The translations under genes were made by a program, and so were the position numbers. From Gammaproteobacteria bacterium (GTDB taxonomy: Bacteria; Pseudomonadota; Gammaproteobacteria; Steroidobacterales; XN24), in the NCBI GenBank assembly GCA_024640085.1, contig JAHEFR010000004.1, positions 1 to 64,000 of the forward strand: a stretch of 64,000 nucleotides of DNA, given 5' to 3'. The notes below the pieces were generated by a model. It saw only the letters and a program-made list of their open reading frames with translations, was not told the DNA's origin and ran no database searches. Within the stretch, counting starts at the first letter, position 1. Every line of letters begins with the position of its first letter. Below, piece by piece: positions 1 through 25,069 of this stretch.

Positions 1-488
1 TGCTGCCGGTCACCGGGATTGATCCGTTCGGGACTGTAGCCGGCATAGAAATCCTCATTGAACCTCAGGCCGGACAGTGCCTCGAGGATAGGCACGCAGA
101 TCTCTTCGGTGGCCCCCGGATAGACCGTGGATTCATAGATCACCACGTCGCCCGGGCCCAGCACCTTGCCGACGGTCCTGCTGGCCGCCTCCAGAGGATG
201 CAGGTCCGGCTGCTTGGCGTGATCGATGGGCGTCGGCACAGTGACCACATAGACATTGCAATCTTCCAGCCCGGATGGGTCGCTGGAGAAAGTAAGCATC
301 CCGGCCGACGAGAGCTCTTCGGGATCGATTTCGAGGGTGCTGTCCCGGCCGGACTCCAGCTCGGCAATACGGCCCGCATGAATGTCGAAGCCCACCGTGG
401 GATAACGGCGGCCGAAGGCGACTGCCAGCGGGAGCCCCACGTACCCCAGTCCGATGACCCCTATTCGAGCACTCTGCAGTTCGATCAT
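1..488 (-). CDS. Nucleotide-sugar dehydrogenase (UDP-GlcNAc/GalNAc-type), N-terminal part, cut by window edge
   Basis: The ATG is at 488 and the frame stays open to base 1, giving 162 visible residues. An N-terminal Rossmann fold is clear: GLGYVG at residues 13-18 is the GxGxxG loop. VPTP at 84-87, ESTVYPGAT at 119-127 and YSPERINPGD at 151-160 are hallmarks of the UDP-glucose/GDP-mannose dehydrogenase family. The SPERINPGD variant resembles the WbpO/TviB branch, which oxidises UDP-N-acetylhexosamines to uronic acids for O-antigen or capsule. The catalytic Cys lies outside the window, so substrate is inferred. Nothing antigen-related follows on the right; the partner genes would lie to the left of the window. 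Confidence 0.9.
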   Translation of the reverse strand, partial: MIELQSARIGVIGLGYVGLPLAVAFGRRYPTVGFDIHAGRIAELESGRDSTLEIDPEELSSAGMLTFSSDPSGLEDCNVYVVTVPTPIDHAKQPDLHPLEAASRTVGKVLGPGDVVIYESTVYPGATEEICVPILEALSGLRFNEDFYAGYSPERINPGDRQ

Positions 489-894
489 GACCGTCTCTTT
501 CCTGGTGTGATGTTGGGAATCGCTGCGCCGCCGTCTGCTCCGTCGGGCAGGACAGCGGCTGCTGGCCGGCAGTCTAAGGCTTTTGCGATCGAGGCTCTAT
601 GACTGAGTTCACAGCCCACGGGCCCGCTCAGGTGTTCCGACGCGTCCTGGCAGGGTGTCGAGATCATGGACCGCCGCTGGGCCAGGGACACCCGTCGGCC
701 CGACGGCGGACCGCCACATGTGGCACCCACGCCCGGCATGCATGCGCCCTCGCCGGTACCGGAAGTGACCCCGCGATCCCCATCCTGCGCAGGATAGCTG
801 TCGGGCGGGTCTCGAAACCGGGCGGCCATCTGATAATATTCCGCCAATATCCTGCTCGGCCCGACAAGACTCCAACAAGGAAAGCCAGCTCCCG
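489..894. other. 406-bp intergenic region between divergent genes
   Basis: This gap separates the minus-strand sugar dehydrogenase from the plus-strand antiporter operon and must carry both promoters. A GATAAT at 832-837 could be the -10 of the antiporter operon, but no good -35 lies at the right distance. An AAGGA ribosome-binding site sits shortly before the ATG at 895. Open frames here have no family signature. I see no tRNA, repeat or clear terminator. Confidence 0.4.
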
Positions 895-1371
895 ATGATC
901 CGCGTCCTCAGCCTGATCTTCGTCCTTTCGGCGGTCTGGCTGCTGCTATCGGGCCACTACGACACCGTGTTCTACGGCCTCGGCGCTGTCTCCGTGGCGT
1001 TGACGGTGTGGGTCTCGGCCCGGATGAAGGTGATCGACCACGAAGGGCACCCATTCCACATCGCCGGCAGGGTATTCATCTATTTCCCCTGGCTCTTCTG
1101 GGAGATCATCAAGTCCAACATCGACGTGGCCCGGCGCGTGCTCAGTCCCTCCCTGCCAATCAGTCCACGGGTGTTCGTCGTTCAGGCCAGCCAGAAGACG
1201 GCCGTAGGGCGCACCATCTACGCCAACTCCATCACTCTGACTCCCGGGACAGTCACGATCGACGTACGCGGCTCGGAACTGGAGGTGCACGCCCTCACGG
1301 AAGCTTCGGCGGAGGGCATCCAGTCCGGCGTGATGGATGCCCACGCGACTCGTTTCGAGGGCACAGGCTGA
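895..1371 (+). CDS. mrpE: Monovalent cation/H+ antiporter subunit E (MrpE/MnhE)
   Basis: A 158-residue membrane protein of the MNHE family. Two N-terminal hydrophobic helices (about residues 3-45) are followed by the amphipathic YFPWLFWEIIKSN segment near 62-74. The soluble C-terminal part carries the conserved TIYANSITLTPGTVTID stretch (about 109-125). MrpE is an accessory subunit of multisubunit Na+(Li+,K+)/H+ antiporters and has an archaeal MbhA counterpart. It is the first gene of a ten-gene plus-strand run, and its TGA overlaps the ATG of mrpF, implying translational coupling. Confidence 0.93.
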   Translation: MIRVLSLIFVLSAVWLLLSGHYDTVFYGLGAVSVALTVWVSARMKVIDHEGHPFHIAGRVFIYFPWLFWEIIKSNIDVARRVLSPSLPISPRVFVVQASQKTAVGRTIYANSITLTPGTVTIDVRGSELEVHALTEASAEGIQSGVMDAHATRFEGTG

Positions 1372-1646
1372 TGTTCGTTGCCGCGACCGTCGCCATCCTG
1401 GTCACCATGGTGCTGGCCATCGTCCGCACGCTGCTCGGCCCGACCGTGTATGACCGCATTCTGGCGGTGAACATGTTTGGCACCAAGACCGTGCTCCTCA
1501 TCGCCGCCATCGCCTTTATGAGCGGGCGCACCGACCTGCTGGATATCGCGCTGGTCTACGCGCTGATCAATTTCATCGGCATCGTGGCGGTGCTGAAGTT
1601 CTTCGAGTACGGCGAATTCAGCCGTGGCGGGCGGGGGCGGCCTTGA
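1371..1646 (+). CDS. mrpF: Monovalent cation/H+ antiporter subunit F (MrpF/MnhF)
   Basis: A 91-residue protein with three predicted transmembrane helices (about 3-22, 34-52 and 58-76). The conserved loop GPTVYDRILAVN near 23-34 and the DLLDIALVYALINF segment are typical of MrpF/MbhB. The start ATG at 1371 overlaps the mrpE stop by one base. The stop overlaps the next start in the same way. In Mrp complexes this small subunit packs beside subunit G and the MrpA C-terminal portion. Confidence 0.93.
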   Translation: MFVAATVAILVTMVLAIVRTLLGPTVYDRILAVNMFGTKTVLLIAAIAFMSGRTDLLDIALVYALINFIGIVAVLKFFEYGEFSRGGRGRP

Positions 1647-1963
1647 TGGACGCGTCGCTGGACCTGGTCTGCTGGGTACTGATCCTTGTCGGCGGCGCCT
1701 TCGGCATCACCGGCGGTATCGGGATCGTGCGCATGCCCTCCTTCTTCACCCGCATCCACGCCGCCGGCATGGCGGAGACGATGTGCGCGCCGCCCATCCT
1801 GCTGGCGATGATGATCCAGGCAGGCTGGAGCCTGGTGACCTTCAAGCTGGTGCTGATCCTGATCTTCCTGTTCCTGACCAGCCCCACCGCATCGCACGCC
1901 CTGGCCAAAGCGGCGCTCCACGGCGGTGTCCCTCCCGTCGATCCCGGTGCTGACGATCGATGA
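1646..1963 (+). CDS. mrpG: Monovalent cation/H+ antiporter subunit G (MrpG/MnhG)
   Basis: A 105-residue protein with three hydrophobic helices and the diagnostic GIVRMPSFFTRIHAAG motif near residues 25-41. A second conserved block, LTSPTASHALAKAA, lies near the C-terminus. I take the ATG at 1646, which overlaps the mrpF TGA by one base, rather than the in-frame TTG at 1643. The stop overlaps the next gene by four bases (ATGA). MrpG corresponds to MbhC in archaeal membrane-bound hydrogenases. Confidence 0.92.
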   Translation: MDASLDLVCWVLILVGGAFGITGGIGIVRMPSFFTRIHAAGMAETMCAPPILLAMMIQAGWSLVTFKLVLILIFLFLTSPTASHALAKAALHGGVPPVDPGADDR

Positions 1964-2523
1964 ACCTCGACCTCACTATCGACGTCCTGCTGCTGGCCTT
2001 CATGGCGGTGATCGCCATCGCCGTCGTGCGCATGCGGGATCTGTTCGGTATCGCCATGCTGTTCAGCGTGTTCAGCCTGCTCTCCGCCGGCGTGTTCACG
2101 GTCATGGACGCGGCGGATGTGGCCTTCACCGAGGCCGCCGTCGGAGCCGGCGTCTCAACGATCCTGATGCTGGCGACGCTGACCCGGACGGCGCGAGAGG
2201 AGCAGCCGAAGCGGTCCAGGAACCCGACGCTCCCGCTAATCGTCGTGTTCGTGACCGGCGCGCTGCTGGTATTCGGCACCAGCGACCTGCCCCGAATGGG
2301 TGATGCCAGCGCGCCGGCCCATCATCACGTCGCGCCTCGATATATCGAGGATTCCGAGAGAGAGATCGGCATCCCCAATATCGTCACCTCGGTGCTGGCC
2401 AGCTATCGCGGCTACGACACCCTCGGCGAGACCACGGTTATCTTCACCGCGGGCGTAGCGGTGATGGCGCTGCTGGGAATTCGCCGGCGTCGTCGGCGAG
2501 AGGAGCCAGGAGAGGAGGACTGA
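1960..2523 (+). CDS. MbhD-MbhE fusion (DUF4040 plus MrpA C-terminal-like domain)
   Basis: A 187-residue membrane protein. The first about 75 residues match the DUF4040/MbhD type: three helices with RMRDLFGIAMLFSVFSLLSA and an ADVAFTEAAVGAGVST stretch. The second half (about 90-185) resembles MbhE, with a helix, a soluble loop containing HHHVAPRYIEDSE, then GIPNIVTSVLASYRGYDTLGE and a final helix. In canonical Mrp systems both parts form the C-terminus of MrpA; here they are free of the NuoL-like pump portion. The C-terminus is very basic then acidic (RRRRR, EEPGEED). Its order between G and B subunits equals that of the archaeal Mbh module. Confidence 0.85.
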   Translation: MNLDLTIDVLLLAFMAVIAIAVVRMRDLFGIAMLFSVFSLLSAGVFTVMDAADVAFTEAAVGAGVSTILMLATLTRTAREEQPKRSRNPTLPLIVVFVTGALLVFGTSDLPRMGDASAPAHHHVAPRYIEDSEREIGIPNIVTSVLASYRGYDTLGETTVIFTAGVAVMALLGIRRRRRREEPGEED

Positions 2524-2945
2524 TGCTTCACCACACGGTCCTGAGAGTGGTCGCGAAGCTGCTGATACCGATGATCCTGCTGTTCGCCCTGTATGTCCAA
2601 TTCCACGGGGACTACAGTCCTGGCGGCGGCTTCCAGGCGGGGGTCATCTTCGCCGCCGGCATCATCCTGTATGCCCTGATCTTCGGCCTCGAGGACACCA
2701 TGGACGCTCTGCCTCCGGGGGTGCTCAAGATCCTCTCTCCACTCGGCGTCCTGATCTATGCGGGCGTCGGCGTCGACACCCTGCTGCTGGGCGGCAACTT
2801 CCTGGACTACAATTTCCTCGCCCACGAGCCTACCCATGGCCAGCACCTGGGCATCTTCCTGGTGGAACTGGGCGTGGGCGTCACCGTGTTCTCCACCATG
2901 CTACTTCTTTACTATGCCTTCGCCGGACGGGAGCCCGGGCAGTGA
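2523..2945 (+). CDS. mrpB: Monovalent cation/H+ antiporter subunit B (MrpB/MnhB, MbhF-like)
   Basis: A 140-residue protein of the MnhB domain family. The signature YVQFHGDYSPGGGFQAG (about residues 24-40) is followed by three further helices and a late GQHLGIFLVELGVGVTVFST motif. The start overlaps the previous stop by one base, and the stop overlaps the GTG of mrpC by four bases. MrpB contributes to the membrane sector near the cation path in structurally known Mrp complexes. Confidence 0.93.
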   Translation: MLHHTVLRVVAKLLIPMILLFALYVQFHGDYSPGGGFQAGVIFAAGIILYALIFGLEDTMDALPPGVLKILSPLGVLIYAGVGVDTLLLGGNFLDYNFLAHEPTHGQHLGIFLVELGVGVTVFSTMLLLYYAFAGREPGQ

Positions 2946-3295
2946 CGGTGTTGCACCTGTACAACTACGAGATCGCCATCTTCCTGGCGATGGTCGGCTT
3001 CTACGTGGTGGTCTCCCGGGGCAACCTGGTCAAGAAGGTCGCCGGACTGTCCATGTTCCAGACCTCGGTATTCATTCTGTACATCAGCATGGGCGTGGTG
3101 GACGGCGGCACCGTGCCGATACTCGTCGAGGGAATGACCCATTATTCCAATCCCGTCCCCCACGTCCTGATCCTGACCGCCATCGTGGTCGGCGTCGCCA
3201 CCACCGCGGTGGCGCTGTCGCTGATCATCCGCATCAAGGAAGCCTACGGCACGGTCGAAGAAGACGAGATCCACGAGCAGGACAAATCGTTCTGA
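2942..3295 (+). CDS. mrpC: Monovalent cation/H+ antiporter subunit C (MrpC/MnhC, NuoK-like)
   Basis: A 117-residue NuoK-like protein with three helices. A GTG start at 2942 gives the four-base overlap with mrpB. NLVKKVAGLSMFQTSVFIL and the block NPVPHVLILTAIVVGVATTAVALSL are conserved in MrpC/MbhG, the homologue of NuoK of complex I. The C-terminus is acidic and ends in EDEIHEQDKSF. The TGA overlaps the ATG of the first D-type subunit by one base. Confidence 0.93.
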   Translation: MTVLHLYNYEIAIFLAMVGFYVVVSRGNLVKKVAGLSMFQTSVFILYISMGVVDGGTVPILVEGMTHYSNPVPHVLILTAIVVGVATTAVALSLIIRIKEAYGTVEEDEIHEQDKSF

Positions 3296-4788
3296 TGGCG
3301 CACGCTTTTCTCGATAACCTGCCGGCCCTCCAGGTGGTGATCCCGCTCCTGTCAGCGCCGCTGTGTCTGGTGCTGGCCCGCTGGCCCCGCCTTGTCTGGA
3401 CCATGTGCACGCTGGTCACCTGGACAGCGTTCGGCATCGCCCTGGCGCTGTTGCAGACGGTTCTGGCAGAAGGGCCGGTCAGCTATGCCATGGGCGGGTG
3501 GGCGGCACCCTGGGGTATCGAATACCGGATCGACGCCGTCAATGCCTACGTGGCCCTGATCGTGACGGGCATCGCCGCCGTGGTGCTCCCGTATGCCTAT
3601 CGCAGCGTGCCGCTGTACATCCACGGCGAGCGGGTACCCCTCTTCTACGCCTTGTTGATGCTCTGTTTTACCGGCTTGCTGGGCATGACTGTCACCGGGG
3701 ACGCCTTCAACGTCTTCGTGTTCCTGGAGATCAGTTCCCTGTCCATGTACGGGTTGATCAGCCAGGGACGGGACCGCCGCTCTCTTACGGCATCATTCCA
3801 GTACCTGGTCATGGGCACGATCGGCGGCACCTTCGTGCTGATAGGCATCGGTTTTCTGTACGTACTCACCGGGACCCTGAACATGGCGGACCTGGCCGCC
3901 CGGCTCCCAGATGTCACACAGGTCAGGACCCTGCACACGGCGTTCGCCTTCATCGTCGTCGGTATCGGCCTGAAGCTGGCCATGTTTCCGCTGCACCTCT
4001 GGTTGCCGAACGCGTATGCCTACGCCCCCAGCACCGCCACGGTCTTTATCGCCTCCACCGCCACCAAGGTGGCGGTATACATCCTGCTGCGATTCGTCTA
4101 CACGATCATGGGGCCGGCTCTCTTCTCCGAGGGCATTCCCTACGGTCAGATCGCCATTGTGCTGGCAGTGATGGGACTGCTCACGGGCAGCTTCGTGGCC
4201 ATCTTTCAGCAGAACATCAAGCGCATGCTGGCTTACTCCAGCATCGCCCAGATCGGTTATATCCTGCTCGGAATCGGATTCGCATCAGTGCTGGGGCTCC
4301 AGGCAGCCTTGCTGCACCTGTTCAATCACGCCCTGATGAAGGGCGCCCTGTTCATGGCGGTTGGCTGTTTCGTCTATCGGCTCGGCTCGATGAGCATCGA
4401 GGATATGGCGGGCGTTGGCCGGCGCATGCCCTGGACCTTCGCCGCCTTCGTGATGGGTGGTCTCAGCCTGATCGGCGTGCCGCTGACGGTGGGCTTCGTG
4501 AGCAAGTGGTACCTGGTGCTGGCCGCCCTGCAGAAAGGCTACTGGCCCCTGGCGGTGCTGATACTCATCGGGTCCTTGCTGGCGGTAGTCTACATCTGGC
4601 GGGTGGTAGAGACGGCCTGGTTCGCCAAACCGTCCCTGCGGGCGGCGGAAGTCCGCGAGGCGCCCCTGGCCATGCTGATCCCCACCTGGATCCTGGTGCT
4701 CGCCAACATCTATTTCGGCGTCAACACGACAATGACTGTCGGGGTGGCCGACCTGGCGGCCCGTACGCTGATGGAGAGCATGCGATGA
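3295..4788 (+). CDS. mrpD: Cation/H+ antiporter D-type pump subunit 1 (MrpD/MbhH-like)
   Basis: A 497-residue polytopic protein of the proton-translocating NuoL/M/N-MrpA/D family. The key ionisable residues are present: E145 in FLEISSLS, K227 in GIGLKLAMFPLHLWLP, K258 in TATKVAVY and K404 in GFVSKWY. The start at 3295 follows from the one-base overlap with mrpC. A longer open frame running back into mrpB has no homologous extension. This is the D subunit in the conserved E-F-G-A'-B-C-D order, so it most likely contacts subunit C directly. The stop overlaps the next start by four bases. Confidence 0.92.
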   Translation: MAHAFLDNLPALQVVIPLLSAPLCLVLARWPRLVWTMCTLVTWTAFGIALALLQTVLAEGPVSYAMGGWAAPWGIEYRIDAVNAYVALIVTGIAAVVLPYAYRSVPLYIHGERVPLFYALLMLCFTGLLGMTVTGDAFNVFVFLEISSLSMYGLISQGRDRRSLTASFQYLVMGTIGGTFVLIGIGFLYVLTGTLNMADLAARLPDVTQVRTLHTAFAFIVVGIGLKLAMFPLHLWLPNAYAYAPSTATVFIASTATKVAVYILLRFVYTIMGPALFSEGIPYGQIAIVLAVMGLLTGSFVAIFQQNIKRMLAYSSIAQIGYILLGIGFASVLGLQAALLHLFNHALMKGALFMAVGCFVYRLGSMSIEDMAGVGRRMPWTFAAFVMGGLSLIGVPLTVGFVSKWYLVLAALQKGYWPLAVLILIGSLLAVVYIWRVVETAWFAKPSLRAAEVREAPLAMLIPTWILVLANIYFGVNTTMTVGVADLAARTLMESMR

Positions 4789-6251
4789 CCCTGGTCGGGG
4801 CCATGCAGCTCGCCGTCGTCTTGCCGGCGGCGGCCAGCCTGCCCATCGCCGTCACCGGCCGGTCACCAAATCTGCGGGAGGCGGTCACCCTTTCGACCGC
4901 CGTGGTCGTGCTCCTTCTGGTGGCCTCCGCCGTCCCCGGGGTACTGGCCGGTGAGCGCCCCGAGATCACACTCATGGAGTTCGTGCCCGGGCTGTCCCTG
5001 ATGTTCCGCCTCGAACCCCTCGGCATGATCTTCGCGCTGGTCGCCAGCTTCCTGTGGCTGGTGACCTCGATCTACTCGATCGGCTACATGCGCGGGCACC
5101 ACGAGGAGAACCAGACGCGTTTCTACGCCTGTTTCGCCGTGGCCATCGCCAGCGCGCTGGGCGTCGCCTTCGCCGGCAACATGCTGACCCTGTTCGTCGC
5201 CTACGAAGTCCTGAGTATCTCGACTTATCCGCTGGTAACCCATTCCGGGACGGAAGAGGCGAAGCGGGCCGGGCGAGTCTATCTTGGCATCCTCCTGGGC
5301 ACGTCCATCGGCTTCCAGCTGCTGGCCATCCTCTGGACCTGGAACCTGACCGGCACCCTGGATTTCGAGGCCGGGGGCATCCTCGCGGGACACGCGGACG
5401 GGCCTGCGGCCGCCCTGCTGCTAGCCCTCTATGTATTCGGTATCGGCAAGGCGGCCGTCATGCCCTTCCACCGCTGGCTCCCCGCTGCCATGGTGGCGCC
5501 TACTCCTGTCAGCGCCCTGCTGCACGCCGTCGCGGTGGTCAAGTCCGGCGTCTTCGCCATCCTCAAGGTCTGTGTCTATCTGTTCGGACTGGACTTCCTC
5601 ACTAGTACCGGAGCCAGCGACTGGCTGCTCTATTTCGCCGGCGCGACGATCCTGCTCGGGTCCCTGGTGGCGATGCGCAAGGACAACCTGAAGGCGCGGC
5701 TGGCCTATTCGACCATCAGCCAGCTCTCCTACATCGTGGCCGGCGCGCTGCTGGCCAGCAGCCTGGCCGCCACCGGCGCGGCCATGCACATCGCCATGCA
5801 TGCCTTCGGCAAGATCACGCTGTTTTTCTGTGCCGGTGCCATCATGGTGGCGGCTCACAAGACAGAGATCAGCGAGATGGACGGCCTCGGGCGCGCCATG
5901 CCCTTCACCTTCGTCGCGTTCTTCATCGGCAGCCTCTCTATCATCGGCCTGCCACCCACCGGCGGCACCTGGAGCAAGTTCTACCTTGCCCTCGGCTCCC
6001 TGGAATCGGGGCAGATCTGGATGCTGGTCGTGCTGATGGTGAGTTCTATGCTCAATATCGCCTACCTGTTACCGCTGCCAGTCCGCGCCTTCATGGCGAA
6101 ACCGTCCACGGATCTGCCGGACAAGATCACAGAAGCGCCACTCCCCTGCCTCATCGCCATCGGTGTGACCAGCCTGGGCTGCCTGGCGCTGTTCTTCTAT
6201 CCCGATCTGCTGTACCAGCTGGCAAGCCTGGTCGGCGCGGGCGCCGGCTGA
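4785..6251 (+). CDS. Cation/H+ antiporter D-type pump subunit 2
   Basis: A 488-residue polytopic protein of the same superfamily. E141 (VAYEVLSISTYP), K222 (FGIGKAAVMPFHRWLP), K253 (VVKSGVFAI) and K398 (GTWSKFYLAL) match the conserved pump residues. It is clearly diverged from the first D subunit, for example PPTGGTWSKF in place of PLTVGFVSKW. Start 4785 overlaps the D1 stop (ATGA). In Mrp antiporters there is normally one MrpA and one MrpD pump; this protein may stand in for the pump part of MrpA, which is inference from position. Confidence 0.9.
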   Translation: MTLVGAMQLAVVLPAAASLPIAVTGRSPNLREAVTLSTAVVVLLLVASAVPGVLAGERPEITLMEFVPGLSLMFRLEPLGMIFALVASFLWLVTSIYSIGYMRGHHEENQTRFYACFAVAIASALGVAFAGNMLTLFVAYEVLSISTYPLVTHSGTEEAKRAGRVYLGILLGTSIGFQLLAILWTWNLTGTLDFEAGGILAGHADGPAAALLLALYVFGIGKAAVMPFHRWLPAAMVAPTPVSALLHAVAVVKSGVFAILKVCVYLFGLDFLTSTGASDWLLYFAGATILLGSLVAMRKDNLKARLAYSTISQLSYIVAGALLASSLAATGAAMHIAMHAFGKITLFFCAGAIMVAAHKTEISEMDGLGRAMPFTFVAFFIGSLSIIGLPPTGGTWSKFYLALGSLESGQIWMLVVLMVSSMLNIAYLLPLPVRAFMAKPSTDLPDKITEAPLPCLIAIGVTSLGCLALFFYPDLLYQLASLVGAGAG

Positions 6252-6267
6252 GCAACCGGAGCACGAC

Positions 6268-6555
6268 ATGGAAACACCCAGAGAACCCAAGCGATACCTG
6301 GACAATCCGGAGAACGTCACCCGCCTGTGGCGGCGGTTCGTAATGGCCTGTGCCGTCGTAGCGGCGCTGGACCTTTTCGGCCTCCTCGGGATCGTCTATC
6401 ACCGCCACGCGTCGCTGTTCGTCGAGGGCCTGCCAGGGTTCTATTGGGGATGGGGTTTCGTGGGCATTGTCTTCCTCGTCTTCGGCGCCATACAGCTCCG
6501 ACGCTTCGTGATGCGGCCCGAGAATTACTACGAGAGGCCCGGCGATGCCGACTGA
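6268..6555 (+). CDS. Small two-helix membrane protein inside the antiporter operon
   Basis: A 95-residue protein with two predicted helices (about 23-45 and 59-78). The N-terminus is hydrophilic (KRYLDNPENVTRLWRR) and the C-terminus ends RPENYYERPGDAD. I do not recognise a named family. It lies 16 bp after D2 and overlaps D3 by 11 bp, so it is part of the operon. A role as an accessory or assembly subunit linking D2 and D3 is inference only. Size and topology recall the small accessory subunits of Mrp/Mbh complexes. Confidence 0.75.
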   Translation: METPREPKRYLDNPENVTRLWRRFVMACAVVAALDLFGLLGIVYHRHASLFVEGLPGFYWGWGFVGIVFLVFGAIQLRRFVMRPENYYERPGDAD

Positions 6556-8239
6556 CATGCCGCCGTTCCTGCCGTTTCTTGTTGCCGCGCTGCTGGCGGC
6601 GGTCACCCGCGGGCGGCTGCGATCCGCGCTGATGCTGGCCACGCCCATCGCAGGGGCGCTCGCGCTGACGGGCATCGGGTCGGGCGAGCTCCTGCAGATC
6701 CAGGTCCTCGGCTATACGCTGACCCCCGTCCGGGTGGACGAACTCAGCCTGATGTTCGGCTACCTGTTCCATCTCGGCGCCTTTATCGCCGTGCTCTATG
6801 CCCTGCACACCGACGACACCCTGCAACACGTCATGGCCATGGCTTATGCGGGGGGCGCCGTGGGTGCCGTGTTCGCCGGCGATTTGATCACCTTCTTCCT
6901 TTTCTGGGAGGTGCTGAGCCTCAGCTCGGTGTTCCTGATCTGGGCCCGGCGGACGCCACAGGCCATCGCGGCGGGTTTCCGCTACCTGCTCCTGCAGATC
7001 GGCTCCGGCGTCACGCTCCTGGCAGGTCTTCTGGTCTACGTCGCCGCCACCGGCGAGGTGGCGATGAACCATATCGGGCTGGAAGCGCCCGGCGGCTGGC
7101 TGATCATTCTGGCCCTTGGCCTGAAGTGCGGCTTCCCGATGCTGCACATGTGGCTCACGGACGCCTATCCCGAGTCGACGCCGACAGGCGCGGTCTTCCT
7201 ATGCATGTTCACCACCAAGTGCGCCATCTATGCCCTGACCCGGAGCTTCGCCGGCGCCGAGCCGCTGATCTACATCGGCGCTTTCATGACGTTCTTCCCC
7301 ATCTTTTTCGCGGTCATCGAGAACGACCTGAGGCGGGTCCTCTCATACAGCATGATCAACCAGCTCGGCTTCATGGTTTGCGGGATCGGCCTGGGCAGCG
7401 CCCTGGCGCTCAACGGCACGGTGTCCCACGCCTTCAACGACGTGCTGTTCAAGGGGCTGCTGTTCATGTCCATGGGCGCGGTACTGACGATGACCGGCAC
7501 CACGAAGGCGTCCGAGCTGGGCGGGCTGTACAAGACCATGCCCCAGACCACCGCGCTGTGCATCGTGGGCGCGGCCTCGATCTCCGCCATCCCCCTGTTC
7601 TGTGGGTTCGTGAGCAAGTCCATGATCATGCAGGCGGCCCTGGACCAGGGTCACACCATCATATGGTTCTTCCTCCTGTTCGCCTCCGTGGGCGTATTGG
7701 AGCACGCGGGCATCAAGATCCCCTTCTTCGCCTTCTTCGCCCACGACTCGGGCCGGCGCCCGGCCGAGCCGCCGGTCAACATGCGCGCGGCCATGGCGGT
7801 GGCCGCCGCGCTTTGTATCGTCATCGGGGTTTTCCCGGAGGCGACGCTCTACCGGCTGCTGCCCTTCGACGCGTCCTATCACCCCTATGACATGACCCAC
7901 GTCGTCACCCAGGTGCAGCTGCTGATGTTCGGCGCCCTGGCGGTGTTCTGGATGATGCGCACGGGCCGTTATCCGACCGAGGAGCGAGCCGTCAATCTGG
8001 ACTTCGACTGGATTTATCGCCGACTGCTTCCCGCCGCTATCCGCGGCGGAGAGAGGGTCCTGTCACCGGTCTGGGACGGCGCCAGGAAGGGCGTCGTCGC
8101 GCAGTTCTCCGGGTTGGTAGCCCTCCTGTTCCGCTACCACGGGCCCGGTGGTGCTCTGGCCAGGACCTGGCCCACGGGCAGCATGGCCATATGGGTCGCG
8201 GTGCTGCTGGCGGTCTTCGTGGTGGTGTATTACCTGTGA
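6545..8239 (+). CDS. Cation/H+ antiporter D-type pump subunit 3, long C-terminal extension
   Basis: A 564-residue polytopic protein, longer than D1 and D2. Conserved pump residues are E122 (LFWEVLSLSS), K194 (LGLKCGFPMLHMWL), K225 (TTKCAIYA) and K358 (GFVSKSM). After the core it carries an additional section (about 420-564) with a cytoplasmic-looking stretch RTGRYPTEERAVNLDFDW and a terminal helix (about 545-562). This layout recalls the lateral-helix-bearing C-termini of NuoL-like subunits, though similarity in sequence is not shown. A GAGAGG precedes the ATG at 6545. A second in-frame ATG at 6557 would remove the overlap with the small gene. Confidence 0.88.
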   Translation: MPTDMPPFLPFLVAALLAAVTRGRLRSALMLATPIAGALALTGIGSGELLQIQVLGYTLTPVRVDELSLMFGYLFHLGAFIAVLYALHTDDTLQHVMAMAYAGGAVGAVFAGDLITFFLFWEVLSLSSVFLIWARRTPQAIAAGFRYLLLQIGSGVTLLAGLLVYVAATGEVAMNHIGLEAPGGWLIILALGLKCGFPMLHMWLTDAYPESTPTGAVFLCMFTTKCAIYALTRSFAGAEPLIYIGAFMTFFPIFFAVIENDLRRVLSYSMINQLGFMVCGIGLGSALALNGTVSHAFNDVLFKGLLFMSMGAVLTMTGTTKASELGGLYKTMPQTTALCIVGAASISAIPLFCGFVSKSMIMQAALDQGHTIIWFFLLFASVGVLEHAGIKIPFFAFFAHDSGRRPAEPPVNMRAAMAVAAALCIVIGVFPEATLYRLLPFDASYHPYDMTHVVTQVQLLMFGALAVFWMMRTGRYPTEERAVNLDFDWIYRRLLPAAIRGGERVLSPVWDGARKGVVAQFSGLVALLFRYHGPGGALARTWPTGSMAIWVAVLLAVFVVVYYL

Positions 8240-8246
8240 AGAGAAC

Positions 8247-8300
8247 AATAGGGATCAGAGAGCCATTTTTTTGAAGGCAAATTGCTCTCTGACCCCTATT
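8247..8300. repeat. GTCAGAG hairpin repeat, copy 1
   Basis: The arms at 8247-8263 and 8284-8300 are complementary at 16 of 17 positions, separated by a 20-bp loop. The right arm with its flank is repeated exactly at 9658-9678 (copy 2). It lies between convergent genes. The TAG stop (8296-8298) of the minus-strand cupin gene lies inside the right arm. It may also act as a bidirectional transcript end, having TTTT after the right arm. It resembles short dispersed hairpins mobilised by REP-associated tyrosine transposases; that link is inference, as no such transposase is in the window. Confidence 0.8.
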
Positions 8301-8835
8301 TTCCGATCTGCTCGTTCTCGCGTTCGAAGATGCGCCGGATGACATCGCCGTCGGAGGGTTCCTCTTCCAGGGTCTCCGGATTCCAGAGGCTGCGTGCAGT
8401 ATCGAAGAAATCGCCACCATAGATGTGGATGCCGCCGGTGAATCGTCGCAGCGGGTTTGTCACTGAATGAATGGCGTCTACGGAGAGCGCCGCCACATCG
8501 CCCTCGAACAGGCAGGTCGCCCCGGAGGCCTCGATGCCGTCCGGCGTGCGGCGCCACATGATGTTGTCTTCCCGCCCGGTGTAGATACCGATGTTGGCCC
8601 ACATGAGGTGATTGTGGGGCATCAGATTCATCTGCGGCGTCCAGGTGGCGCTGAATATGGTCAGCGTCTTTGATCGATGCATGACATCGATATCGGCCAG
8701 GGTCGGCTCGCCGACTGCCTGTAGCATGGCGCGTGGCCGATGAACGGCCCGCTCCAGCACCTCCAGAACGGCCGCCTGGGCGTCAGCCTCCGTATTCGCG
8801 GTAACGCAGTCGTCAACAAAGCGTTCGATGTCCAT
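8296..8835 (-). CDS. Cysteine-dioxygenase-like cupin (COG5553 family)
   Basis: A 179-residue predicted metal-dependent protein of the double-stranded beta-helix superfamily. LMPHNHLMWANIGIYTG places H74 and H76 as likely metal ligands. HSVTNP (H123) and GGIHIYGGDFF (H137 region) supply the rest of the conserved core. The family is annotated as predicted metal-dependent enzymes related to cysteine dioxygenase; substrate is not established. The last residues IGK and the stop codon come from the neighbouring hairpin repeat, so the C-terminus has probably been remodelled by its insertion. It lies 54 bp downstream of dnaQ on the same strand. Confidence 0.8.
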   Translation of the reverse strand: MDIERFVDDCVTANTEADAQAAVLEVLERAVHRPRAMLQAVGEPTLADIDVMHRSKTLTIFSATWTPQMNLMPHNHLMWANIGIYTGREDNIMWRRTPDGIEASGATCLFEGDVAALSVDAIHSVTNPLRRFTGGIHIYGGDFFDTARSLWNPETLEEEPSDGDVIRRIFERENEQIGK

Positions 8836-8889
8836 CGGTCCTCCCCGCGTCCCGCCTCAGTATCCTACCCGTCCGGATCGGCAGGGGTG

Positions 8890-9600
8890 CTAGTGCCCGA
8901 GCCCGCGCCAGAGGCTCTCTCCCGCCACCGCCTCGATGCGGTCCAGGGCCGCTTCGTGGGCTTCCACCTCGTCATCCGAGGCCCGGAGGACGACCAGCTT
9001 GAGCCCCTTCCGGTCCACGCGCCGTTCGATTTGTTCCCGTGCCGATGAAGACTTGCTGTCGGTGCCGAGAGACAGAGCTGCCTGGCCGCCGGTCATGGCC
9101 AGATAGACTTCCGCGAGGATGCGGGCATCGAGCAGCGCCCCGTGGAGTTCGCGCTGGGAATTGTCCACCTGGTAACGCCTGCACAACGCATCCAGGCTGT
9201 TACGCTGCCCTGGATGCATCTCCCGCGCCAGCACCAGGGTGTCCAGCACCGGGCATAGTTCCTGGACGCGGGTGGGCTCGGGCCCCAGGCGGGCGAATTC
9301 CGCGTCCAGGAATCCCACGTCGAAAGGCGCGTTGTGAATGACCAGTTCGGCATCACCGACGAACGCGACCAGATCCTCGGCCACATCGCCGAACATCGGC
9401 TTGTCGGACAAGAAGGCTGCGGACAGGCCGTGCACTTCCTGGGCCCCGGGGTCGATATCCCGTTCCGGATTGAGATAGTGGTGGAAAGTCCGTCCGGTCA
9501 GTCGCCGGTTGATCATCTCCACGCACCCGATTTCGATGATCCGGTGGCCCTGCTCCGGCTCCAGCCCGGTGGTCTCCGTGTCCAGTACGATCTGTCGCAT
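8890..9600 (-). CDS. dnaQ: DNA polymerase III epsilon subunit (3'-5' proofreading exonuclease)
   Basis: A 236-residue DEDDh exonuclease. Exo I is D7/E9 in LDTETTGL, Exo II is D94 in HNAPFDVGFLD, and Exo III is H153/D158 in HGALLDAR. The about 65-residue C-terminal tail beyond the nuclease domain is the part that binds the polymerase alpha subunit. The length matches bacterial DnaQ (about 240). It follows rnhA on the minus strand, the common rnhA-dnaQ pairing, but here the two are separated by the second copy of the hairpin repeat rather than the usual divergent arrangement of E. coli. Confidence 0.95.
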   Translation of the reverse strand: MRQIVLDTETTGLEPEQGHRIIEIGCVEMINRRLTGRTFHHYLNPERDIDPGAQEVHGLSAAFLSDKPMFGDVAEDLVAFVGDAELVIHNAPFDVGFLDAEFARLGPEPTRVQELCPVLDTLVLAREMHPGQRNSLDALCRRYQVDNSQRELHGALLDARILAEVYLAMTGGQAALSLGTDSKSSSAREQIERRVDRKGLKLVVLRASDDEVEAHEAALDRIEAVAGESLWRGLGH

Positions 9601-9620: not shown

Positions 9621-9678
9621 AATCGGCGTCAGAGCGCCAATCTTCCCACCTGGTGAGAATTGCTCTCTGACCCCTATT
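9621..9678. repeat. GTCAGAG hairpin repeat, copy 2
   Basis: The right arm 9659-9678 (ATTGCTCTCTGACCCCTATT) is identical to copy 1. The left arm 9621-9641 is a diverged partner (AATCGGCGTCAGAGCGCCAAT) that keeps the GTCAGAG core. It sits in the rnhA-dnaQ gap. The rnhA stop TAA (9677-9679) overlaps the conserved arm and is directly followed by an out-of-frame TAG belonging to the repeat. The orientation relative to the upstream minus-strand gene is the same as in copy 1. Confidence 0.78.
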
Positions 9679-17499: not shown

Positions 17500-17576
17500 T
17501 GGCGGAGCGGACGGGACTCGAACCCGCGACCCCCGGCGTGACAGGCCGGTATTCTAACCAGCTGAACTACCGCTCC
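17500..17576 (-). tRNA. tRNA-Asp (GTC)
   Basis: A 77-nt cloverleaf with encoded CCA. The acceptor is GGAGCGG/CCGCTCC and the anticodon GTC is at 17540-17542 (reverse complement GAC on plus). The T-arm GGTTCGAGTCC is canonical. It is followed by an intrinsic terminator. Confidence 0.97.
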
Positions 17577-17582
17577 TTTTGC

Positions 17583-17658
17583 TGGTGGGTGCTGAAGGGA
17601 TCGAACCTTCGACCTTCGCCTTGTAAGGGCGACGCTCTCCCAGCTGAGCTAAGCACCC
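17583..17658 (-). tRNA. tRNA-Val (TAC)
   Basis: A 76-nt cloverleaf with encoded CCA. The acceptor is GGGTGCT/AGCACCC, the anticodon TAC corresponds to plus-strand 17623-17625, and the T-arm is GGTTCGATCCC. It lies 17 bp after hupB and 6 bp before tRNA-Asp, so the three are probably cotranscribed. Confidence 0.97.
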
Positions 17659-24409: not shown

Positions 24410-24498
24410 TGGTGCGAAAGGAGAGACTCGAACTCTCACGGGGGATCAACCCCACCGGGACCTAAACCCGGCGCGTCTACCAGTTCCGCCACTTTCGC
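24410..24498 (-). tRNA. tRNA-Leu (TAG)
   Basis: An 89-nt class II tRNA with a long variable arm and encoded ACCA. The acceptor is GCGAAAG/CTTTCGC, and the anticodon TAG corresponds to plus 24462-24464. It lies between the terminator after tRNA-Lys and tig. Confidence 0.96.
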
Positions 24499-24620
24499 AG
24501 GCGACCGGCCACCCCCCTCGCCGCGGCATCGGCGGACGCCGAGGGCCGACCGATAATTATACCCGAACAGGGGTCCGAGAACCCGCATCGGGTGGGCCGA
24601 AAGCCGTCTCCCGGCCAGCC

Positions 24621-24652
24621 AAACAAAAAGGCCCGCGGCGTCGCCGCGGGCC
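24621..24652 (-). terminator. Rho-independent terminator after tRNA-Lys
   Basis: A perfect 10-bp stem (24630-24639 with 24643-24652) and a 3-base loop are followed on the minus strand by TTTTTGTTT. It ends the Pro-Arg-His-Lys tRNA transcript, so tRNA-Leu and tig need another promoter or read-through. Confidence 0.9.
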
Positions 24653-24659
24653 AGGTGTC

Positions 24660-24735
<76 letters not shown>

Positions 24736-24778
24736 GGCAGGGGCGCCGAAACTAAACCCTTCGCCGCCACCTGTAAAG

Positions 24779-24855
24779 TGGGGTGGACGATGGGATTCGA
24801 ACCCACGACGACCGGATCCACAATCCGGGGCTCTACCAACTGAGCTACGTCCACC
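24779..24855 (-). tRNA. tRNA-His (GTG)
   Basis: A 77-nt cloverleaf including the encoded extra 5' G (G-1, complement of 24855) opposite the C73 discriminator, a tRNA-His identity feature. The anticodon GTG corresponds to plus 24819-24821, and CCA is encoded. Confidence 0.96.
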
Positions 24856-24877
24856 ATTGTACGTCTGCCTGACGCGA

Positions 24878-24954
24878 TGGCGCGCCCGGCAGGACTCGAA
24901 CCTGCAACCGTCGGCTTAGAAGGCCGATGCTCTATCCGGTTGAGCTACGGGCGC
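24878..24954 (-). tRNA. tRNA-Arg (TCT)
   Basis: A 77-nt cloverleaf. The acceptor is GCGCCCG/CGGGCGC, and the anticodon TCT (plus 24918-24920) reads AGA/AGG. CCA is encoded. Confidence 0.96.
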
Positions 24955-24992
24955 TCGTATCGCCCTCTTCCGGCCGTCCGGGGCATCGAAAA

Positions 24993-25069
24993 TGGTCGGG
25001 GCAGAGGGATTTGAACCCCCGACCCTCTGCTCCCAAAGCAGATGCGCTACCAGACTGCGCCATGCCCCG
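24993..25069 (-). tRNA. tRNA-Pro (TGG)
   Basis: A 77-nt cloverleaf. The acceptor is CGGGGCA/TGCCCCG, and the anticodon TGG corresponds to plus 25033-25035. CCA is encoded. It is the first tRNA of the Pro-Arg-His-Lys transcript. Confidence 0.96.

Follow-up and report, generated by a model that had tools for sequence, protein, structure and literature searches.

In a 64,000-nucleotide stretch of DNA (hereinafter, the window; positions 1 to 64,000 of contig JAHEFR010000004.1, assembly GCA_024640085.1) from a gammaproteobacterium of the order Steroidobacterales, we analyzed a ten-gene operon on the plus strand (positions 895-8239, gene order E-F-G-A'-B-C-D1-D2-S-D3) that combines genes of an Mrp-type antiporter, without MrpA, with three pump subunits denoted D1, D2 and D3. 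The last three genes, of which S encodes a small membrane protein, comprise a conserved cassette that in different genomes is joined to the E-to-D1 base, stands apart from it or occupies the place of NuoL in respiratory complex I. We consider it probable that the ten products assemble in the membrane as a single complex, namely, an antiporter of the group 3 Mrp type that exchanges monovalent cations for H+ and has three proton channels; its most likely activity, judged by the gene complement of the operon, is exchange of Na+ (or K+) for H+, the trait of group 3.

The open reading frames were called as one contiguous set (Table 1), and matches to Pfam and NCBIfam families together with the coordinates confirmed the ten genes and three intact pumps recognized in an earlier reading of this DNA, made without database searches (hereinafter, the sequence-only reading). 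The Pfam families are MNHE for E, MrpF for F, MnhG for G and Proton_antipo_M for each of the pumps. The order of the first seven genes is that of the archaeal Mbh module, as that reading had it, and also that found in Pyrococcus furiosus (PMC8415708; here and below, published systems are described from the openly accessible parts of the cited papers). Homologues of E, F, G, B, C and D in one cluster, the lack of mrpA and several copies of D are the features of group 3 Mrp systems, in which mrpA is missing and mrpD is sometimes multi-copy (PMC8415708), and which are irregular in gene order, with two mrpD genes in a cyanobacterium (PMC5703873). The full-length MrpA with a fused MbhD/E-like tail that characterizes Mrp groups 1 and 2 was not found: the tail, the equivalent of the MrpA C-terminal domain, is encoded by the separate gene A', and no TIGR00940 match at E<=1e-150 was detected in the genome (a 73-contig assembly, 95.8% complete, in which absence is to be read as 'not detected'). 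The PF00346-type large subunit typical of Mbh and Mbs is encoded neither in nor near the cluster, and the Pfam and NCBIfam matches of the ten genes include no hydrogenase and none of the nuoA-I modules of complex I. The sequence-only reading was thus right that MrpA and a hydrogenase gene are missing from the operon and that, with three intact pumps and no MrpA, it differs from the two-pump Mrp antiporter. Seven of the nine gene junctions are 1- or 4-base overlaps; the assertion that almost every junction is of this kind overlooked the 16-base gap between D2 and S and the 11-base overlap between S and D3.

A search with the D3 protein yielded 40 loci in named genomes, 30 of which contain the full set (E, F, G, A', C, D1, D2, S and D3), with B separate or fused to A'. 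As for the remaining ten, a contig end interrupts the gene set in seven, the halves of the set are apart in one (L046), one is a complex I operon (L072) and in one F and C were undetected (L073). The loci come from gamma-, alpha- and betaproteobacteria, Gemmatimonadota, Latescibacterota and one acidobacteriote; in addition, a myxococcote (G590) has the complete ten-gene Mrp operon, and two haloarchaeal plasmids carry the order E-F-G-A'-B-C-D1-D2-D3, without S. Given that the same gene order is found across phyla, chance is ruled out, and the search for three-pump clusters suggested in the sequence-only reading shows that the arrangement recurs. Among evenly drawn genomes, the one studied here included, 143 represent the class: 29 have a D3 above the family cut-off and 21 match MrpA at E<=1e-150 (in no case above the TIGR00940 cut-off), so that the annotation 'subunit D' hides a common machine; in the phylum, D3 was found in 21 of 398 genomes. 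D3 and MrpA occur together in a single genome of the class (Fisher one-sided p=0.042 for mutual exclusion, a weak value that ignores kinship and compares unequal thresholds, and on which no argument rests).

The three genes D2, S and D3 travel together. D2 is present in the same locus for 82 of 86 distinct D3, the four misses being a short locus (L143; D2 is present in L166), a cut locus and two S-D3 pairs of genome G173. S is located directly upstream of D3 in 83 of the 86 distinct D3 loci, the exceptions being the haloarchaeal pair and a locus that breaks off inside D3; this count excludes three D3 truncated at the C-terminus, that of the window among them, and looser counts give 86 of 89 with the truncated D3 included and, by a positional rule with duplicates included, 95 of 98 loci, the three missed ones also having an S match. 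In a Sinorhizobium meliloti pSymA record and in a Phyllobacterium plasmid, D2, a small protein and D3 lie between nuoK and nuoM, and no nuoL was found in those stretches; both small proteins are recognized by a profile of S from which they had been left out (E 1.4e-13 and 1.7e-15). In the myxococcote G590, nuoM, nuoN, D2, S and D3 are part of a complex I operon, and the Mrp operon lies at another site. In G589, a metagenome assembly for which wrong binning is possible, E-F-G-A'-B-C-D1 is found on one contig and D2-S-D3 on another, beside TRAP-type transporter genes (the transporter was named by eye). The description of D2, D3 and the small protein as appended therefore holds for their position after D1 and understates the case, since the same cassette is also part of complex I. 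This modularity looks like the under-described part of the system: the open-access text, which leaves key papers uncovered, yielded no published statement that the two MrpD-like subunits of 'green' complex I and a small protein make up a cassette also present in Mrp operons.

In a 27-row alignment of S, E85 and Y87 are invariant and R83 and Y88 nearly so. The AlphaFold2 (AF2) model of S is a two-helix hairpin (helices 14-44 and 58-81) of modest confidence (mean predicted local distance difference test score, pLDDT, 78; predicted template modelling score, pTM, 0.45). As a conserved small subunit, S may stabilize the added pumps.

The AF2 model of D3 (32 sequences, mean pLDDT 85.2, pTM 0.82) presents this protein as a NuoL/MrpA-type terminal subunit, with a predicted lateral helix and an anchor helix after transmembrane helix (TM) 15. 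The modelled tail consists of a helix at 450-472, a 44-residue helix at 489-532 and the last helix at 545-563, with pLDDT below 50 at 480-487 and 540-543. The model aligns into the tail with NuoL chains (8e9g_L, Z 45.1, root-mean-square deviation 4.8, model residues 2-537; for 9q8i_L, residues 2-564 with a deviation of 10.5), and with the MrpD chain 7qru_D over the pump domain only (2-442, Z 45.0); because MrpD chains score as high as NuoL, Z gives no rank of NuoL above MrpD.

The length of the brace can be expressed as the distance between the centers of TM15 and TM16. In MrpA, the terminal subunit of two-pump systems, the median is 67 (29 rows, 27 of them distinct as two repeat a reference; 5-95% range 65-71), in E. 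coli NuoL (three pumps) the distance is 98, and in D3 from Mrp-type loci the median is 92 (n=54, 53 of them within 87.5-93.5 and L076 at 111.5), the D3 distances being alignment-based and those of MrpA and NuoL derived from hydropathy segments, so that the two measures are not identical. Only the E. coli NuoL was used, given that the 11 NuoL rows include HyfD and two long outliers. Among the complex I copies, D3 measures 112.5 in each of the two rhizobial records and 144.5 in G590, where the Mrp copy measures 120.5, a step of 24 inside one genome; the haloarchaeal values are 108.5 and 109.5. Thus, D3 has a bracing span about 25 residues above that of two-pump MrpA, and the complex I copies exceed this in turn, though not without exceptions; loop lengths vary as well, as L076, the two G590 copies and the haloarchaea indicate. 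The trend fits a ruler with one more pump per 20-25 residues, and a five-pump complex I has been reported to carry a 26-residue insertion in the same helix (PMC9040806). An automatic hydropathy measure of the D3 tail, which gave gaps of 28-57 in 15 of 85 rows (28-40 in 7 of these), was replaced by the alignment-based distance; the low gaps are read as the lateral helix mistaken for a membrane helix. It is conceivable, with chances a little short of even, that D2-S-D3 is a portable distal arm, that is, a pump pair locked by S with an adjustable brace, a ruler that grows by approximately 20-25 residues per pump, clipped onto an antiporter or a complex I base and changing the number of protons per cycle.

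The glutamate of TM5 and the lysines of TM7, TM8 and TM12 are all kept in D1, D2 and D3 of the window; the positions follow the E. coli NuoM numbering, and the NuoM residues were checked. The claim that all three pumps retain Glu and Lys is therefore borne out (E/K/K/K in each). With off-family tree rows left out, the TM7 lysine is kept in 25 of 25 D1 and 32 of 32 D2 rows, and 2 of the 25 and 3 of the 32, respectively, lack the TM8 lysine. In relatives of D3, 60 distinct rows reach the TM7 site; 42 of them have Lys and 18 have Asn, the latter including both haloarchaea, the complex I copies and Mrp loci with the gene order of the window (examples are L010-L022, L072, L094-L097 and L170, Mrp and complex I settings alike). 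The Mrp structure paper (PMC7419157) calls the TM7 lysine absolutely conserved. The acidic residues and the histidine of A', F and G that by motif match the cation path of PMC7419157 are kept, including the acidic residues of the TE and DTLGE motifs of A'.

A quick tree of 117 pumps, constructed without bootstrap and with four partial PDB rows and several long end branches, places D1 on the MrpD/MbhH/NuoN side (SH-like approximate likelihood ratio test, SH-aLRT, 97), and D2 and D3 in clades of their own (SH-aLRT 100 for each), with Mrp and complex I copies inside both. In this phylogeny of the pumps, which the sequence-only reading had proposed as a check, D3 lies apart from MrpA; the approximately unbiased test does not reject a grouping of either D3 (p 0.5) or D2 (p 0.454) with MrpA, so that D3 may still be a freed N-terminal part of MrpA.

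From these features we infer a single complex with the pump order D1-D2-D3, in which cations would pass by way of E, F, G, B and A', A' and C would link this route to D1, and D2 and D3 would lengthen the proton arm. The lateral helix of D3, like that of NuoL, would serve as a brace reaching back over D2 and D1, and S would keep the D2/D3 end together. Powered by the proton motive force, the complex would admit H+ by its three channels and thereby expel Na+ (or K+). The third channel would raise the H+/Na+ ratio, allowing Na+ export when the opposing gradient is steeper or the proton force is lower. How many protons complex I-like machines move per cycle, and whether added pumps change this number, is an open question of bioenergetics, for which a three-pump antiporter with a module common to complex I would be a redox-free test case with respect to the H+/Na+ ratio.

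Several observations weigh against this reading. The single complex and the antiport are predictions from gene content and models. For the histidines that PMC7419157 describes in MrpC, no clear equivalent was seen in C, in an alignment that is ambiguous there. Given the Asn in place of the TM7 lysine in 18 of 60 rows, D3 need not pump in all relatives. Moreover, D3 can leave the set: in L165 (G173:C244), two S-D3 pairs (158-2631 and 5774-7829) are present without a D2, Mrp or nuo match in 16 kb. The distance rule has its exceptions among Mrp-type D3 in L076, G590 and the haloarchaea, and the complex I copies are uneven, one being far above the other two. As a separate observation, the S-D3 pairs of G173 adjoin a two-component system and an NRPS-like gene (named by eye).

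The content of the genome and of the related loci bears on the alternatives. A profile search for PF00361 detected six pumps in the genome, namely, D1, D2, D3 and three on contig C69, which score as NuoL, NuoM and NuoN and lie where the nuo genes are, and a single MnhG gene; the operon is the sole Mrp system detected. The two halves of the operon could encode separate complexes, with E-to-D1 forming a one-pump Mrp of the P. furiosus type and D2-S-D3 a second complex or one serving complex I. The separate location of the two halves in G589 and the presence of the cassette in complex I operons where nuoL is not seen speak for such a split, which we nevertheless hold to be improbable: the set is kept together in 30 of the 40 named loci, the genes of the window overlap tightly, and the genome retains its own nuoL, nuoM and nuoN, so that its complex I needs no replacement. 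Furthermore, the brace of D3 is longer than the two-pump brace, which supports a single three-pump complex.

Docking of the module on a redox enzyme encoded elsewhere (a hydrogenase, a sulfane reductase or a quinone enzyme), as in Mbh and Mbs, is suggested by the Mbh-like order of the first seven genes and by a nickel-iron hydrogenase large subunit, the only one detected in the genome, encoded on contig C46. This protein matches PF00374 over its full length and, by this match, is presumably of the uptake type. With a sole PF00346 protein in the genome, encoded on C69 along with the nuo genes, neither a second complex I nor the large subunit of a group 4 hydrogenase was detected. Clustering of the flanking genes of 49 loci (at least 1 kb upstream visible in 35 and at least 1 kb downstream in 41 of the 49) yielded no recurrent redox partner: no flanking family occurs in more than six loci, and the one that reaches six is NhaR. 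The haloarchaeal clusters share no redox neighbor either, a quinone-dependent dihydroorotate dehydrogenase being encoded near one and a 2Fe-2S ferredoxin-domain protein near the other. A redox partner elsewhere, which the sequence-only reading had entertained, accordingly appears very improbable. As to the direction of exchange, for the stand-alone Mrp of P. furiosus, which has the same first seven genes, the published reading is that Na+ entry drives H+ out (PMC8415708). Two Nqr/Rnf-type genes in the window genome are a possible source of the Na+ gradient that such a reverse mode would need in vivo. However, the NhaR neighbors in relatives suggest Na+ expulsion, no measurement on a bacterial three-pump system was found in the literature consulted, and we regard reversal as unlikely, albeit with some chance of being correct. 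NhaR is a sodium-response regulator; its gene lies beside the operon in the six gammaproteobacterial loci, including those of Colwellia, Thalassotalea and Pseudoalteromonas, one being a 155-residue fragment, and all three neighbors tested exceed the NhaR cut-off.

Compared with known systems, the three-pump antiporter favored here is of a kind already in print, given that group 3 clusters without mrpA and with extra mrpD genes have been described. Among the closest is the stand-alone group 3 Mrp of P. furiosus (mrpEFGBB'CD), with the same first seven genes in the same order, an MbhD-MbhE fusion and neither MrpA nor an energy-input module, but with one pump instead of three and with S absent from the published gene list (PMC8415708). 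In the group 3 cluster of Ca. Nitrospira alkalitolerans, mrpD is followed by two more pump-like genes, as in the operon, but these are described as NuoM-like and NuoL-like and, by that description, would be nearer to locus L090 (see below) than to D2-S-D3 (PMC7784846). In the rhizobial 'green' complex I, the place of NuoL is taken by a pair of MrpD-like subunits (PMC9040806, with reference to Degli Esposti & Martinez Romero 2016; this complex I is treated also in PMC7415380); in the two records examined, this pair is D2 and D3 with S in between. The differences from the operon are the presence of the NADH and quinone modules, a D3 tail approximately 20 residues longer and Asn at TM7. Mrp systems of groups 1 and 2 (MrpA-G) share the seven subunit families and the lateral-helix brace (PMC7419157) but have two pumps, the N- and C-terminal parts of MrpA in one protein and a brace of 67 against 92. 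The haloarchaeal mnh clusters on Natronorubrum and Natrononativus plasmids have the order of the operon from E to D3 but no S, with overlapping D2 and D3 genes and Asn at TM7 of D3.

Other multi-pump clusters were noticed among the relatives. In L090 (G014:C1), E-F-G-A'-B-C-D1 is followed by a NuoL-like and then a NuoM-like pump, which is another route to three pumps, and L026 and L030 contain A'-B-C-D1 and a NuoL-like pump, a different multi-pump group 3 cluster. L077 (G004:C14) and the first halves of L078 (G005:C63) and L079 (G006:C21), in the family of the window, have the order E-F-G-A'-B-C-D1-D2-D2' followed by a fourth, very long pump reading frame with a large extra C-terminal region, and are thus four-pump Mrp clusters; in L078 and L079, a second Mrp-like cluster lies directly behind the first.

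Table 1. Genes of the operon and the bracing tail of D3 (window coordinates; tail residues from the AF2 model, HL, lateral helix)
Feature	Coordinates	Strand	Description
E	895..1371	+	MrpE/MbhA-like, 158 aa; PF01899, 106 bits (Pfam)
F	1371..1646	+	MrpF/MbhB-like, 91 aa; PF04066; GPTVYDR aspartate kept
G	1643..1963	+	MrpG/MbhC-like, 106 aa; PF03334; TIGR01300 above cut-off; RIHAA histidine kept
A'	1960..2523	+	MbhD+MbhE fusion, 187 aa; PF13244 and PF20501; PRK12504, 209 bits (cut-off 141)
B	2523..2945	+	MrpB/MbhF-like, 140 aa; PF04039 (MnhB); PRK12508, 201 bits (cut-off 120)
C	2942..3295	+	MrpC/NuoK-like, 117 aa, GTG start; PF00420 (Oxidored_q2); two PRK07375 models above cut-off
D1	3295..4788	+	Proximal pump, 497 aa from ATG 3295; PF00361, 214 bits
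D2	4785..6251	+	Second pump, 488 aa; PF00361, 184 bits
S	6268..6555	+	Small membrane protein with two predicted helices, 95 aa; without a family in Pfam or NCBIfam
D3	6545..8239	+	Distal pump with predicted C-terminal lateral helix, 564 aa; PRK12668, 709 bits (cut-off 564)
D3 bracing tail	7892..8236	+	TM15 450-472, HL 489-532, anchor TM16 545-563 (AF2)

The start of G can be either TTG 1643 or ATG 1646; for D1, the best start is the ATG that overlaps C by one base, the codon at 3292 being CTG. Although the contig starts at window base 1, the operon transcript does not lack an upstream subunit because a divergent minus-strand gene (3-488), cut by the contig end, begins at base 488, and the 5' end of the operon accordingly looks complete. 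The product of this gene is of the nucleotide sugar dehydrogenase type, with the best NCBIfam match to TviB-type UDP-N-acetylglucosamine C-6 dehydrogenase (202 bits across 160 residues; the full-length cut-off is not reached). A promoter and terminator scan of window positions 1-9000 gave no signal above chance, and an Rfam scan of the window detected seven tRNA genes, none of them inside the operon; they are found on the minus strand in two groups, at 17503-17658 and 24413-25069. Directly behind D3, a palindromic intergenic repeat, AATAGGG(A/G)TCAGAGAGC...GCTCTCTGACCCCTATT, occupies positions 8247-8300, and a further half copy is located at 9658-9678; with three matches in the window against 0.01 expected, it looks like a dispersed element of the repetitive extragenic palindromic (REP) type.

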